Source: Psychrilyobacter atlanticus DSM 19335 (GTDB lineage Bacteria; Fusobacteriota; Fusobacteriia; Fusobacteriales; Fusobacteriaceae). Taken from it: a DNA stretch of 64,000 nt. The stretch lies in NCBI RefSeq assembly GCF_000426625.1, contig NZ_KE384547.1, positions 1,913,159 through 1,977,158 of the forward strand. Reading direction: 5' to 3'. Positions 9,673 through 61,098 of this stretch are shown piece by piece. Each line of letters begins with the position of its first letter. The stretch's first letter is position 1. The notes under the pieces were generated by a model. That model had not been told where the DNA came from. It searched no databases and worked only from the letters and a program-made list of their open reading frames with translations. Position numbers and translations under genes: made by a program.

Positions 9673-10389
9673 CTATTTTATATTCAGCAAAGTTCGAAAT
9701 TCTTTTATCTTATTCCGGCTCACAGGAACTTCTACATCCAAATCCTCTATCTTCAGGTTATACGTACTGTTGAACCAAGGTATTATTTCTTTTATTTTGT
9801 TTATATTCACTATATATGATCTGTGGGTCCTGAAAAATATATTTGGCAATTCCCCCTCCAAATCAGATATCTTTTGTTTGGAAAAATATATTTCACCTTT
9901 GGCATATACCTTCGTTTCCCTTTCACATGCTTCGAAAATATAAATTTCATCCAGGGATAAAACATACATCTTCTCCCCCTTCCAAAGAGTCAGTCTGTTG
10001 ATGCTCTTCTCTTCCTTAGGTTTTTCTTCTATGTTTTTTTCTATTAAACTATCTAAGGTTTTTATTATCCTCTCCTCAGAATATGGTTTTAATATATAGT
10101 CAAAAGCTTTTATGCTGAAAGCATCCACTGCATACTCACCATATGCAGTTATAAATATGATCTGTGGCTTTATTTCAAATTTTGAGATCAACTTAGCTAA
10201 GACCATCCCATTCATATTTGGCATATTTATATCTAAAAAGATTATATCCACGCTGTTTTTTTCCAAAAAATTAAGCACTGACATGGAATCCTCAAATTCT
10301 CCTACAATCTCTAACTCTTCATATTTTTCTATAAAATATCGAAGTTCCATCCTTGCTGGATATTCATCATCAATTATTATACACTTCAT
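9673..10389 (-). CDS. LytTR-family response regulator
   Basis: This 238-residue regulator has a receiver domain (about 1-118) with the acidic pair D7/D8, phospho-acceptor Asp in IIFLDINMP near residue 53 and K in LKPYSEE near 101. The C-terminal LytTR DNA-binding domain carries FFRTHRSYIVNINKI and a VPVSRNK ending. It overlaps the sensor kinase stop by 1 bp (TAATG), so the pair is translationally coupled. The likely target is the CstA-type transporter 190 bp downstream, by analogy with BtsR and YpdB. I saw no clear LytTR direct repeat in 9482-9672. Confidence 0.92.
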   Translation of the reverse strand: MKCIIIDDEYPARMELRYFIEKYEELEIVGEFEDSMSVLNFLEKNSVDIIFLDINMPNMNGMVLAKLISKFEIKPQIIFITAYGEYAVDAFSIKAFDYILKPYSEERIIKTLDSLIEKNIEEKPKEEKSINRLTLWKGEKMYVLSLDEIYIFEACERETKVYAKGEIYFSKQKISDLEGELPNIFFRTHRSYIVNINKIKEIIPWFNSTYNLKIEDLDVEVPVSRNKIKEFRTLLNIK

Positions 10390-55750: not shown

Positions 55751-56161
55751 ATGTCTAAAAAAATATTTTCAGATATAGAAGTTACTAAATTATCTAAAAA
55801 TAAAAATATTTCTAAAGTTTCAAATAAAGCTATTACATATACTTTTGAATTTAAAAAGAAATTTATTGAGGAATATAAAATGGGAAAGCCTCCGCGTATA
55901 ATTTTTGAGGAAGCTGGCTTTGATGTGGATATTTTAGGTATGAAAAGAGTTGAAACTTCCTCTAAACGTTGGAGGAGAGCTTTTAAAGATAATGGTGAAC
56001 TGGGTTTAATGGATTCCAGGAAAACATCTTCTGGAAGACCTCTGAAAAGAGAGTTAACAGATTTAGAAAAAATTAAACGTTTAGAAGCACAGATTGAATA
56101 TTTAAAAATAGAGAATGAATTTTTAAAAAAGTTAGACGAGATCGAAAGGGGGGATGCTTAA
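55751..56161 (+). CDS. IS3-family transposase OrfA, copy 3
   Basis: This 136-residue protein is identical to those of copies 1 and 2. The helix-turn-helix lies near residues 68-85 and a leucine-zipper-like helix near 105-130. The frame ends GDA then TAA at 56161. Near the end it contains TTA-AAA-AAG (56123-56131), and the heptamer A-AAA-AAG (56125-56131) is a classic -1 slippery site in the right phase. Confidence 0.9.
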   Translation: MSKKIFSDIEVTKLSKNKNISKVSNKAITYTFEFKKKFIEEYKMGKPPRIIFEEAGFDVDILGMKRVETSSKRWRRAFKDNGELGLMDSRKTSSGRPLKRELTDLEKIKRLEAQIEYLKIENEFLKKLDEIERGDA

Positions 56162-56211
56162 ATAAAACTGAGATTTTTGAAGCTATTAAATTAATAGTTA
56201 AAAGATATAAG

Positions 56212-57063
56212 TTGAAATCAAAAATTAAATTTCTATGTTTTCAAGCGGGGGTTTCCAGGTCTGGTTTTTACAACTATATTAATTCAGAAAAAAATAGAAA
56301 TAATAAAGAAGCTAAAGATTTAAACTCCAAAAGATTAATTCTAAAAGCTTTTAATAGAAGAGGTTTTAAGAAGGGCGCCCGAAGTATCAGGATGATTTTA
56401 GAGAATGAATTTGATACTATTTTTAATTTGAAAAAAATAAGAAGAATTATGAAAAAATACGAAATAATATGTCCTCACAGAAAACCGAACCCCTATAAAA
56501 ACATAGCTAAAGCAACTAAGGAACATTCGACTGTCCCTAATATATTGAAAAGAGAATTTAAACAAGAAGTTCCTAAAAAAGTTCTCCTAACTGATATCAG
56601 CTATCTAACTTATGGAATTGGAAAAAGAGCTTATCTTTCAACAATAAAAGATGGTAGTACTAATGAAGTATTAGCTCATGAGGTGTCTCATAGTCTTAGT
56701 ATTGATATTGCTTTAAACACGGTTAAGCGCTTAGTTAAAAGAAAGTTTAAACTCCATCCAGAGTGCATTATTCATTCGGATCAAGGCTTTCACTATACTA
56801 ATCCTAAGTTTCAAAGATTAGTGAAATCAAAGAAAATTATCCAATCAATGTCGCGAAAAGGTAACTGTTGGGATAATGCTCCTATGGAGTCATTCTTTGG
56901 ACATATGAAAGATGAAATAAATTTAAAGCCCTTAAAAACATTAGATGATGTAAAGAAAGAAGTATCTAAATATATGAATTATTACAATAACCATAGGTAT
57001 CAATGGAACTTAAAAAAGATGACTCCTGTGCAATACAGAAATCATCTTTTAACAGTATCTTAA
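56212..57063 (+). CDS. IS3-family transposase OrfB, copy 3 (made by -1 frameshift)
   Basis: This 283-residue catalytic part has an N-terminal HTH_21-like region (SRSGFYNYI, GARSIRMIL) and an rve core with D (LTDISYL), D (HSDQGFHYT) and E (APMESFFG), then WNLKKMTPVQYR at the C-terminus. The separate start is only TTG 56212 without a good ribosome site. The frame is open upstream to the slippery site, reading KKVRRDRKGGCLNK, so an OrfAB fusion after a -1 shift at 56125-56131 is expected, as known for IS3 elements. Confidence 0.92.
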   Translation: MKSKIKFLCFQAGVSRSGFYNYINSEKNRNNKEAKDLNSKRLILKAFNRRGFKKGARSIRMILENEFDTIFNLKKIRRIMKKYEIICPHRKPNPYKNIAKATKEHSTVPNILKREFKQEVPKKVLLTDISYLTYGIGKRAYLSTIKDGSTNEVLAHEVSHSLSIDIALNTVKRLVKRKFKLHPECIIHSDQGFHYTNPKFQRLVKSKKIIQSMSRKGNCWDNAPMESFFGHMKDEINLKPLKTLDDVKKEVSKYMNYYNNHRYQWNLKKMTPVQYRNHLLTVS

Positions 57064-57134: not shown

Positions 57135-58094
57135 TTATTTTGAAAATACCATCTTTCTCATTTTTGATCCTACTTCCTCTATCTTAGAGTCAGAATACTG
57201 AGATCTTTCTGCATTCATAAATTTATATCCATTTTCTGTTTCCTCTATGAAGTCTTTGGCAAATTTTCCATTTTGGATATCTGCTAAAACTCCTCTCATC
57301 GCTTCCTTACTTTCCTTTGTAATTATCTTTTTACCAGTTATATAGTCTCCATATTCAGCGGTATTTGAAATAGAATCTCTCATTGCCGCAAACCCTTTTT
57401 CATATACTAAATCTATTATTAACTTCATCTCATGAACACATTCAAAATATGCCACCTCAGGATTATATCCTGCTTCTACTAAAGTATCAAATCCAGCCTG
57501 CATCAATTCCGTAACTCCTCCACACAGTACTGCCTGCTCTCCAAATAGATCAGTTTCAGTTTCCTCTTGGAATGTAGTTTCTATTACTCCAACTTTTCTC
57601 CCCACACCATTTGCCCAGGCATATGCTGCCTCTTTCGTATCTCCAGTTACATCATTGTGTATTGCTGCCAAACAAGGAACCCCATGTCCACCTTCAAATA
57701 TCTCCCTTACCATATGTCCTGGTCCCTTAGGAGCAACCATAAATACATTTATACCTTCTCTTGGTGTAATTCTTTCATAATGAATATTAAATCCATGTGC
57801 AAATCCCAAATAAGCTCCGTCTTTTAAATTTTCTTCAATTTCAGATCTATATAGTTCTGGTTGAGCTTCATCTGGAGCTAAGATCATTACTACATCAGCA
57901 CCTTTTACAGCTTCTCCTATCATCGCTACTTTTACTCCGTCATTTTCAGCTTTTCCCCATGATTTTGAGCCCTCTCTAAGACCTACAGTTACATCCATTC
58001 CTAGGTCATGAAGATTTAATGCATGTGCATGTCCCTGACTCCCATAACCAACTACCGTTAATTTCTTTCCCTCTAAAAATCTTAGTTCTTTCAT
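57135..58094 (-). CDS. ilvC: Ketol-acid reductoisomerase (class I)
   Basis: IlvC isomerises and reduces acetolactate or acetohydroxybutyrate in branched-chain amino acid synthesis, using NAD(P)H and Mg. Its 319 residues are slightly short at the N-terminus. It has the Rossmann motif VVGYGSQGHAHALNLHDLG near residue 15, the cofactor loop LREGSKSW, APKGPGHMVR, and metal-binding ETETDLFGEQAVLCGG and CVHEMKLIIDL. It is the third gene of ilvB-ilvN-ilvC, 18 bp after ilvN. Its 3' terminator has been split by IS copy 3. Confidence 0.95.
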   Translation of the reverse strand: MKELRFLEGKKLTVVGYGSQGHAHALNLHDLGMDVTVGLREGSKSWGKAENDGVKVAMIGEAVKGADVVMILAPDEAQPELYRSEIEENLKDGAYLGFAHGFNIHYERITPREGINVFMVAPKGPGHMVREIFEGGHGVPCLAAIHNDVTGDTKEAAYAWANGVGRKVGVIETTFQEETETDLFGEQAVLCGGVTELMQAGFDTLVEAGYNPEVAYFECVHEMKLIIDLVYEKGFAAMRDSISNTAEYGDYITGKKIITKESKEAMRGVLADIQNGKFAKDFIEETENGYKFMNAERSQYSDSKIEEVGSKMRKMVFSK

Positions 58095-58112: not shown

Positions 58113-58592
58113 TTAAATTCCTCTGTGCATAGCACTTATTCCAGTTCTAGCTGATTCCAATATTCCAAACTTATCCATGACACCTATCAATCCTTCTACT
58201 TTATTTGAATCTCCAGTAAGCTCTATAATGAGTGCTTCATGGGAAATATCTATAATTTTAGCTCTGTAAATCTCGACTATTTTTATTATTTCTAAACGAT
58301 TTTCAGAATCTGACTTAACCTTTATTAACGCCAACTCTCTTTTTACTACCTTTTTTTCATCCAAAATTTGTACTTTTACTACATCTATAAGTTTAGCTAC
58401 TTGTCTTTTGACCTGTTCAACAAAACTTTCATCTCCAATGACTGTGATTGTCATCCTAAAATGCTCCTTTTTTTCACTCACTCCGCAAGTTATTCCATCT
58501 ATATTAAATCCCCTCTTTGAGAATAATCCTGAGACCTTAGATAATATCCCCGGTCTATTTCTCATGATCACTAAAATTTGGTATTTCTTCAT
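58113..58592 (-). CDS. ilvN: Acetolactate synthase small (regulatory) subunit
   Basis: This 159-residue protein carries an N-terminal ACT domain (ILVIMRNRPGILSKVSGLFSKRGFNIDGITCG, residues 5-38) and the C-terminal ALS_ss_C part. It activates the large subunit and mediates valine feedback inhibition. It overlaps the ilvB stop by 4 bp (ATGA), so the two are translated together. Length and motifs are normal. Confidence 0.95.
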   Translation of the reverse strand: MKKYQILVIMRNRPGILSKVSGLFSKRGFNIDGITCGVSEKKEHFRMTITVIGDESFVEQVKRQVAKLIDVVKVQILDEKKVVKRELALIKVKSDSENRLEIIKIVEIYRAKIIDISHEALIIELTGDSNKVEGLIGVMDKFGILESARTGISAMHRGI

Positions 58593-60298
58593 AACTCCTC
58601 CTTGGACATAATCATCTCATCTACCGATTTCCCTCCAGGTATCATAGGAAACACATTTTCCTCCTTAGACACAATACAGTTAACTAGAGCTGATCTTTTT
58701 TTAGAAAATATTTCTCCCAAAAGTTTATCTAACTCTACAGGAGTCTCTGCAAGATAAGAATCTATTCCATATGCCCGGCCCAGCATTACAAAATCAGGAT
58801 TCTTTTCTAATTTTACAAAGGAATGTCTTTTTTCATAAAAAACCTCCTGTAGTTGTTTTACCATTCCTAAAAATGAGTTATTTACAATGATTATTTTTAT
58901 ATCTAATTTATATTCAGAGATCGTCATAAGTTCTTGTGAATTCATTTGAAATCCTCCGTCTCCTAATATGGCTATAACCTCTCTATTAGGATTCGCTAAT
59001 TTTGCTCCTATAGCTGCCGGCAGTCCAAATCCCATGGTCCCTGCTCCCCCTGAAGTTATGATACTGTTAATCCTATTAAAATTATAATATTGTGCAGTCC
59101 ACATCTGATGCTGCCCCACGTCTGTACATACAATCGCTTCTCCCTTGGTTAGTTCACTTATTTTAGAAATCAAGTATTGCGGCAATATATAATCTGTCGA
59201 AAAATTCCTATCCAACGGGTATTTTTTCTTGAGTTCCATTACCCTGTTCATCCAAACTTTATTTTCTCCCTCTGCTTTATATTTTAAGAGAGCTTTTAGG
59301 ACTAAATTTACATCTCCAACTATATGAAGGTCAGCACGTTTATTTTTATCTATCTCTGCCTCATCTATATCTACATGGATTATTTTTGCATCTTTACAAA
59401 ACCTGTGGATATTTCCTGTTACTCTATTATCAAATCTCATTCCTAAGGCTATTATAAGATCTGCTTCATCTGCAGCATAGTTCGCATAGGCTGTCCCATG
59501 CATCCCCAGCATATGAAGGTTATATCTATCTTCTGCCGGAAGGATACCTAATCCTAAAAGAGTAGTTGCTACCGGTATATCAAACTTTTTAGAAAATTTT
59601 CTCAGTTCTTTAGAAGAGTTCGATTTCATCACTCCATTTCCAGCCAAAATAACCGGTCTTTTACTTTTTCTTATCATCTCTATAAACTCATCTGTTTCAT
59701 TTTTTTTTGGTTTTTCATAGATATATTTATACTCTGAAACTGTATTATATTCACTGCTACAACTATTCTGAAAGTTGTCATAGCTCATCTTACTCGTCTG
59801 AATATCCTTTGGAATATCTATAAGTACTGGTCCCGGTCTCCCATTTTCTGTTAAATAAATTGCTTCTCTCAAAAGATCAGATAATTCTTCTATTGATCGC
59901 ACAAGGTAATTATGCTTTGTGATGGAATCTGTTACCCCTGTTATATCCAACTCTTGAAAGGCATCTGTCCCCAAATTATTAACAGATACCTGTCCTGTAA
60001 TAACGAGCATAGGTGTAGAATCCATATAAGCCGTCATTAAGCCAGAAACTGTATTAGCCGCTCCAGGTCCCGAAGTAACTATACAAACTCCTGTTTTACC
60101 ACTGCACCTGGCATATCCATCAGCTGCATGAGCTGCTCCCTGCTCGTGCCTAGTTAAAATATGATCTATCTTTTCTCTATAAGAATGAAGAGCATCATAG
60201 ATAGGAAGTACCGATCCACCTGGATACCCAAATACTGTGTTTAAATCATGCTCTTGCAGAATTTCTAAAATTATTTCTGCACCATTTATCTCTCTCAT
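58589..60298 (-). CDS. ilvB: Acetolactate synthase large (catalytic) subunit
   Basis: This TPP/FAD enzyme makes acetolactate from pyruvate, the first step to valine and leucine (and the isoleucine branch). It has GYPGGSVLPIYDAL near residue 24, HEQGAAHAADGYARCSG (catalytic Glu), the FAD-region MLGMHGTAYANYAAD, and the TPP motif GDGGFQMNSQELMTISEYKLDIKIIIVNN. From ATG 60298 it is 569 residues, the usual length. That ATG follows GGGGGTGAGG, whereas the TTG 15 bp upstream lies inside the ribosome site. Expression is likely attenuated by the leader peptide and terminator upstream. Confidence 0.95.
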   Translation of the reverse strand: MREINGAEIILEILQEHDLNTVFGYPGGSVLPIYDALHSYREKIDHILTRHEQGAAHAADGYARCSGKTGVCIVTSGPGAANTVSGLMTAYMDSTPMLVITGQVSVNNLGTDAFQELDITGVTDSITKHNYLVRSIEELSDLLREAIYLTENGRPGPVLIDIPKDIQTSKMSYDNFQNSCSSEYNTVSEYKYIYEKPKKNETDEFIEMIRKSKRPVILAGNGVMKSNSSKELRKFSKKFDIPVATTLLGLGILPAEDRYNLHMLGMHGTAYANYAADEADLIIALGMRFDNRVTGNIHRFCKDAKIIHVDIDEAEIDKNKRADLHIVGDVNLVLKALLKYKAEGENKVWMNRVMELKKKYPLDRNFSTDYILPQYLISKISELTKGEAIVCTDVGQHQMWTAQYYNFNRINSIITSGGAGTMGFGLPAAIGAKLANPNREVIAILGDGGFQMNSQELMTISEYKLDIKIIIVNNSFLGMVKQLQEVFYEKRHSFVKLEKNPDFVMLGRAYGIDSYLAETPVELDKLLGEIFSKKRSALVNCIVSKEENVFPMIPGGKSVDEMIMSKEEL

Positions 60299-60350
60299 TA
60301 ACCTCACCCCCAATAATTTTCTAATATTATTTTTACCTATATCAAGTTAT

Positions 60351-60378
60351 AAAAAAAAGCAGCTATAATTATAGCTGC
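60351..60378 (-). terminator. Attenuator terminator upstream of ilvB (segments 3:4)
   Basis: On the minus strand GCAGCTAT-AATT-ATAGCTGC is a perfect 8-bp stem followed by T8 (60351-60358), 53 bp before the ilvB start. Its first arm can also pair with segment 2 (GGCTGC at 60434-60439), so two exclusive folds are possible. Confidence 0.85.
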
Positions 60379-60426
60379 CTAATCTAGAAAAAAGTTTACA
60401 TATCTTCTACATTTATTTATTTTTAT

Positions 60427-60455
60427 AAAAAAAGCAGCCAATAACATTAGCTACC
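60427..60455 (-). terminator. Upstream hairpin of the ilv leader (segments 1:2)
   Basis: On the minus strand GUAGCUAAU-GUU-AUUGGCUGC is a 9-bp stem with two G-U pairs, followed by T7. It is the first hairpin after the leader peptide, and segment 2 (AUUGGCUGC) can pair with segment 3 of the terminator instead. Confidence 0.65.
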
Positions 60456-60526
60456 ACCTATAAATTATACTTTTAACTATTCTAAAATAAAGTTTTTCAC
60501 TCTAAAAGCATATAATTTTCCTAATA

Positions 60527-60622
60527 TTATTTTTCAAATCTATTCAATTGATTGCGGTTTAAGTCCAATAAGACTAGCAGCAATAATAATAAATTCATAA
60601 ATAAAACTTTAGTTAAAATCAT
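60527..60622 (-). CDS. Leu-rich leader peptide of the ilvBNC operon
   Basis: This is a 31-codon open frame with ATG 60622 behind GAGGAGGAAGAGAAT. Residues 11-16 are six consecutive Leu codons, followed by Val17, Leu18, Leu19, Asp20 and Leu21; in all 9 of 11 residues are Leu. It ends before two hairpins and ilvB and has a near-consensus promoter (60655-60683). This is a textbook ilv/leu attenuation peptide: leucine shortage stalls the ribosome and should favour the antiterminator. The peptide is too short and repetitive to be an enzyme. Confidence 0.82.
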   Translation of the reverse strand: MILTKVLFMNLLLLLLVLLDLNRNQLNRFEK

Positions 60623-60654
60623 ATTCTCTTCCTCCTCTTTTGTAATTAAGAAAG

Positions 60655-60683
60655 ATAATACCAGTTATTTTTTTTTATGTCAA
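60655..60683 (-). promoter_or_regulatory. Promoter of the ilvBNC leader
   Basis: On the minus strand TTGACA (60678-60683), exactly 17 bp of spacer, then TATTAT (60655-60660); near-consensus. The start of transcription should be about 25 bp before the leader peptide. Confidence 0.8.
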
Positions 60684-60834: not shown

Positions 60835-61098
60835 ATGAAAATTAAACCAATTGGAAATAGAATATTAGTAGAACCTTTAAAGGCTGAAGAAAAAACTTTT
60901 AGCGGTATCATCCTGCCAAGTTCTGGGGAAGCTAAGTCTTCTAATATGGGAGTTGTTGTTGCACTTGGAAATATTAATGATGAGATCAACCTAGGGGATA
61001 AGGTGTTTTTCAAACCTCATTCTGGGATAGAAATACCTGATTCAGACAAGACTTTTCTCATCTTAGAAGTAGAAGAAATCCTAGCCGTAATAGGGTAA
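60835..61098 (+). CDS. groES: Co-chaperonin GroES, not followed by groEL
   Basis: This 87-residue protein has the GroES fold signature: start KIKPIGNRILVEPL, mobile-loop region EEKTFSGIILPSSGEAKSSNMGVVVALG and C-terminal ILEVEEILAVIG. It would cap GroEL. Unusually, no groEL follows: a terminator comes directly (61097-61134), then argG on the other strand. No CIRCE element is visible upstream, only a TATAAT box at 60793-60798. It is either a second groES or the genome has split the pair. The ATG at 60835 follows AAGGAGGTTTATTT. Confidence 0.88.
   Translation: MKIKPIGNRILVEPLKAEEKTFSGIILPSSGEAKSSNMGVVVALGNINDEINLGDKVFFKPHSGIEIPDSDKTFLILEVEEILAVIG

Follow-up and report, generated by a model that had tools for sequence, protein, structure and literature searches.

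A candidate leucine attenuator with two tandem terminators upstream of ilvBNC in a fusobacterium

We consider it highly likely, from the sequence and its comparison with related genomes, that the ilvBNC operon of this fusobacterium is controlled by a leucine-responsive, ribosome-mediated transcription attenuator. The branched-chain amino acid genes would very probably be switched on when leucine is scarce. The window analysed is a stretch of 64,000 nt on contig C2 (of three) of the genome (G000), and the features of the leader are collected in Table 1. About 230 nt separate the stop codon of the leader ORF from the start of ilvB, and two conserved intrinsic terminators, T1 and T2, lie between them.

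Table 1. Features of the ilvBNC leader, its controlled genes and the related leaders
Feature	Position	Strand	Detail
Promoter TTGACA-N17-TATTAT, TG before -10	60655..60683	-	11/12 consensus matches
Shine-Dalgarno AGGAGG of leader ORF	60631..60636	-	read from sequence
Segment 1: start codon region AUAUGAUUUU + CUAAAGUU (codons 4-6)	60605..60624	-	predicted partner of segment 2 in untranslated leader
Leader peptide ORF MILTKVLFMNLLLLLLVLLDLNRNQLNRFEK	60527..60622 (stop included)	-	31 aa
Control codons TTA TTA TTA TTG CTG CTA	60575..60592	-	Leu run of leader ORF
Segment 2, antiterminator strand: (A)UAAUAUUAG from leader stop codon, then AAAAUUAUAU	60510..60530	-
Segment 3: CUAAUGUUA(U), T1 5' arm distal half + loop	60441..60450	-	predicted antiterminator partner of segment 2
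Terminator T1 (segments 3:4): GUAGCUAAU-GUU-AUUGGCUGC, then U7	60427..60455	-
Terminator T2: GCAGCUAUAAUUAUAGCUGC, then U8	60351..60380	-	5' arm can pair with T1 3' arm
ilvB, acetolactate synthase large subunit	58589..60298	-	TIGR00118; first controlled gene
ilvN, acetolactate synthase small subunit	58113..58592	-	TIGR00119
ilvC, ketol-acid reductoisomerase	57135..58094	-	TIGR00465
Paralogous leuA Leu leader	L167 (G000:C2 about 1798.7k)		relatives L168-L171
Ile-rich leader before ilvE	L164 about 9700-10140 (G000:C3)		ilvE at L164:10140
trp leaders	L239 (own genome), L240, L242, L243, L248-L250		often tandem terminators
his leaders	L173, L174, L210-L216, L220

A sequence-only reading of this DNA had described a 31-codon ORF with six consecutive Leu codons and nine Leu in 11 residues, together with a near-consensus promoter just upstream. 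Both were recovered, the nine Leu falling within residues 11-21. The biosynthetic operon is thereby preceded by a short ORF, predicted to be translated, that has its own ribosome-binding site and consecutive codons for the cognate amino acid. Among the ATG ORFs of up to 60 codons in the window, only this one contained at least six consecutive Leu (it appears twice in the ORF list, via two in-frame ATGs). Such a Leu-run ORF occurred in two of 20 64-kb sequences simulated with a second-order Markov model of the window, and in none together with a Shine-Dalgarno site. On the plus strand, a divergent GroES-like gene (60835-61098), whose matches to the GroES family were all below the cut-offs, lies beside argG and argF; two neighbouring plus-strand ORFs resembling an IS3-type transposase pair (55751-57063) end some 70 bases short of the ilvC 3' end.

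Three further genomes of the genus also have the ilvB leader, and in each the Leu run, the promoter and the two terminators are conserved. In five of the genus's genomes a paralogue of this leader stands before leuA; its Leu run is longer, it has the same pair of terminators, and its promoter is kept as TTGACA..TATTAT. We aligned these nine leaders (four before ilvB and five before leuA). The control-codon positions encoded Leu in 53 of 54 cases, though the codons differ, and the other leaders have a purine-rich site resembling GGAGG ahead of the ORF. This conservation, which covers the ilvB leaders of four species, where the Leu run was retained as anticipated, and the five leuA leaders, supports the proposal that ilvBNC of a fusobacterium is under leader-peptide attenuation. 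Pairs of ilvB leaders showed 11 synonymous versus 21 nonsynonymous differences, and outside the Leu run the sequence of the peptide does not clearly point to coding constraint. A covariance model spanning segment 2 to T1, run over 98 genomes, matched the nine known leaders only, suggesting that, at the sensitivity of that model, the element occurs only before ilvB and leuA in this genus. No match to the leader DNA was found in a plasmid collection, and a scan of genome contigs gave distant ilvB genes only.

The variation of codons within a conserved Leu run also bears on whether the leader could be an aptamer-type RNA, a T-box or metabolite riboswitch in which the ORF is incidental. T-boxes do occur in the phylum and in the genus, and AGGUGGUAGC before T1 bears, by eye, a faint likeness to the T-box sequence. 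The leader, however, had no Rfam match at the gathering score or at E values up to 1, whether to the T-box covariance model (RF00230, with its stem I and T-box sequence) or to any other family, and the gap between promoter and leader ORF is too small for a T-box stem I. The sequence-only reading had contrasted the leader with T-box control, and rightly so for the ilvBNC operon, which has none; but the genus does have a T-box (one match, in this genome), located before asnS, and another was seen by asnB-asnS in Ilyobacter. We regard an aptamer-type leader as extremely unlikely. The Rfam amino acid leader families (leu, his, trp, phe and similar) likewise gave no covariance-model match to the leader.

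Both terminators are strong and were absent from shuffled sequences (two versus 0.0), and their stems were 96% paired across the nine leaders. The region from the stop codon to T2 folded better than shuffles (z -3.1). The terminators argue against a leader ORF that acts on translation, by reinitiation or coupling to ilvB, or via Rho in place of intrinsic termination. Reinitiation is one of the roles open to leader ORFs (PMC4833913), yet two such terminators, conserved in nine leaders, stand between the stop codon and ilvB, and we hold this explanation to be exceedingly improbable.

Which hairpin does the switching was less straightforward. The pairings quoted in the sequence-only reading all exist, and the hairpins and alternative pairings of its four-segment scheme are conserved, but the segments had been misassigned: the supposed 1:2 helix, GUAGCUAAU:AUUGGCUGC, has a U7 tail and hence is terminator T1, and the supposed 3:4 helix is the second tandem terminator, T2. 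That scheme would make T1 a protective 1:2 helix, T2 the sole terminator and the pairing of the T1 3' arm with the T2 5' arm the antiterminator. This last pairing held in 71 of 72 cells, and in some of the leaders it is a competitor at equilibrium, the leuA leader of G057 being the clearest case. Against this, T1 has its own U tract of at least seven in all nine leaders, the arm-to-arm pairing shows no compensatory changes, and T1 resembles T2, so that the cross-pairing may be a by-product. The T1 5' arm (the segment 1 of that scheme) moreover begins some 75 nt downstream of the leader stop codon and about 120 nt past the Leu run, and because of this distance a ribosome stalled on the Leu codons cannot mask it. 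On the grounds of the U tract and the distance we rejected the scheme as the main switch, and consider it very unlikely. An antiterminator pairing the leader ACCGC with GUGGU before T1 was also dropped, the relatives not keeping it (by eye).

In the preferred arrangement, with T1 as the 3:4 terminator and segment 2 at the leader stop codon, the predicted helices 1:2, 2:3 and 3:4 are mutually exclusive. Helix 1:2 was paired in 95.7% of 162 cells over the nine leaders, with three pairs showing compensatory changes on both sides and all slid registers far worse; in the ilvB leader of this genome it has one segment 1 mismatch (codon AAA). Helix 2:3, formed by UAAUAUUAG with the distal half of the T1 5' arm, was paired in 81 of 81 cells, five of its pairs varying on one side with G-U retained. 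Among all 6,164 pairs of 9-column windows, only helix 2:3, in two overlapping registers, was fully paired in nine of nine leaders. The covariation score of helix 1:2 was reached by none of 500 shuffles, and a fully paired helix arose in none of 200 column permutations; shuffle counts from related sequences are not probabilities, and the compensatory changes in helix 1:2 are the stronger point. Covarying segments had been expected, an expectation that was borne out for helix 1:2 but not for helix 2:3 and the terminators, where the changes are one-sided only. The sequence AAAATAATATTAG(G)AAAATTAT occurs in two minus-strand copies, one at segment 2 (60510-60535) and one directly before ilvB (60310-60335), of which the relatives keep the latter only in part.

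To follow the helices as a function of ribosome position, we folded the RNA from the ribosome edge to the T1 loop and examined the minimum-energy structure of each of the four ilvB leaders. Helix 2:3 was present in all four when the edge lay between the Leu run and segment 2, and gone in all four once it lay 14 nt past the stop, beyond segment 2. For the leader of this genome it appeared with the edge 27 nt before the stop but not at 31, and its probability rose from 0.15 for a ribosome on the third Leu codon to 0.82 for one on the sixth. The corresponding probabilities were strong for most of the nine leaders; the leuA leader of this genome and a few states gave weak values, several leuA cases lying at 0.08-0.34. 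The models thus contain an antiterminator helix that excludes the terminator and depends on the ribosome edge. Without a ribosome, helix 1:2 was substantial or dominant (predicted probability 0.46-0.97), a prediction that, with its three compensatory pairs, points to restored termination when the leader is untranslated. Once T1 was complete, equilibrium favoured T1 in most leaders, whether segment 2 was free or not, and whole-leader equilibrium folding against ribosome edge (from which the G059 row was left out, its T2 being mislocated) revealed no switch. Given this equilibrium outcome, the switch would have to be kinetic, acting co-transcriptionally. Known attenuators are held to decide during RNA synthesis.

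We propose the following course of events. With ample charged tRNA-Leu, the ribosome would reach the stop codon and cover segment 2, so that T1 forms and transcription ends; T2 would catch polymerases that escape T1. With leucine scarce, a ribosome stalled in the Leu run would cover segment 1 or hold it apart, leaving segment 2 free to pair with segment 3 as soon as this is transcribed, which would block T1 and let the polymerase continue. In an untranslated leader, 1:2 would form and T1 with it, giving superattenuation. The ORF extends beyond segment 2 in one of the ilvB leaders and in most of those before leuA; therefore a ribosome parked at the stop cannot mask segment 2 likewise there.

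The polymerase would still have to pass T2, and it is possible that the freed T1 3' arm pairs with the T2 5' arm for this bypass. The leader might then be a relay attenuator, in which a single ribosome decision is passed to two serial terminators as the freed arm takes the T2 5' arm and disables T2. This arrangement is retained in nine leaders of two leucine-pathway operons, and tandem terminators occur at several other fusobacterial leader peptides; when 2:3 was forced, however, T2 prevailed over the arm-to-arm pairing at equilibrium in eight of the nine leaders. We put the relay forward tentatively, as a possibility that is on balance unlikely.

Similar leaders precede other amino acid operons. 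In the same genome, ilvE-ilvD-ilvB2 has an Ile-rich leader, MRSIINISIVIIILIIINIVNNISCDLYSTNSA, with one terminator upstream, conserved in three relatives; UUAGUUGC in that leader pairs with the 5' arm of this terminator, and an A-U pair of the terminator stem is exchanged for G-C between species. Just past the -35 of the ilvE promoter (L164 and aligned relatives) there is an invariant inverted repeat, TTATTG-N6-CAATAA, in sequence a possible operator. In this genome trpE is preceded by a WWW leader and two terminators; HHHHH leaders stand before the his operons of two relatives. Across Fusobacteriota we counted six genera with His leaders, seven with Trp leaders and three with leuA leaders, all of them candidates recognised by a codon run and a terminator. 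Among the genomes with such candidates is Ilyobacter polytropus DSM 2926, where the gaps before the his and trp genes hold no annotated leader in a gene table that is incomplete; upstream of its ilvB lie a terminator-like hairpin and a short ORF encoding FFLIIILI. The fusobacterial His leaders gave only sub-threshold matches to the Rfam amino acid leader families. Downstream of their peptides there are also sub-threshold matches (L174:159-284, L173:248-376 and L210:250-356) to the trpB motif (RF04312), a riboswitch candidate of Firmicutes and Fusobacteria for which the authors left a classic attenuator open (PMC11109978). The trpB motif might in part represent leader-peptide attenuators.

Leader-peptide attenuation is usually described from Proteobacteria and Actinobacteria, with scattered firmicute cases. 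The present genus uses candidate leaders for Leu (two operons), Ile and Trp, and for His in two species; if the candidates of the other genera hold, Fusobacteriota would be a further phylum with attenuation as a main device for amino acid operons, the T-boxes examined lying at asparagine genes. This would provide a fresh comparison for how frequently such leaders originate independently, account for the unannotated gaps before these operons, and offer a natural tandem-terminator attenuator.

The mechanism class is a known, classical one; what is new, and appears unreported, is its wide use in Fusobacteriota together with the tandem terminators. We found no earlier report of fusobacterial leader-peptide attenuation in the open-access literature, and any claim to priority is provisional. 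The leu, ilv, his and trp attenuators of E. coli and Salmonella have a leader peptide rich in the regulatory amino acid, exclusive 1:2, 2:3 and 3:4 helices and an intrinsic terminator, and their untranslated leaders are predicted to terminate. The ilvBNC leader shares all of these features with them, but differs in its phylum, its AU-rich helices, its two tandem terminators, a segment 2 that begins at the leader stop codon and the lack of an Rfam leader family match. In Corynebacterium, ilvBNC (ilvB-II motif) is likewise preceded by a uORF with many branched-chain residues and by a terminator and antiterminator (PMC10272879), whereas the leader described here, from another phylum, has almost pure Leu codons, two terminators and a leuA paralogue. 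Listeria Rli60, before ilvD-leu, is a ribosome-mediated attenuator with four segments and superattenuation on loss of leader translation (PMC5864092). It resembles our prediction as a four-segment, superattenuating control of a branched-chain operon outside Proteobacteria, but has a 13-residue peptide and one described terminator, belongs to Firmicutes and is stacked on CodY control. Firmicute His leader peptides precede hisS and hisZ (Naville and Gautheret 2010, PMC2965389); to those authors' knowledge none had previously been shown outside Proteobacteria and Actinobacteria, the atypical ermC leader excepted, and Fusobacteria go unmentioned there. The His leaders and the ilvBNC leader have in common a leader peptide in place of a T-box, outside Proteobacteria and Actinobacteria, and differ in amino acid, genes and phylum.
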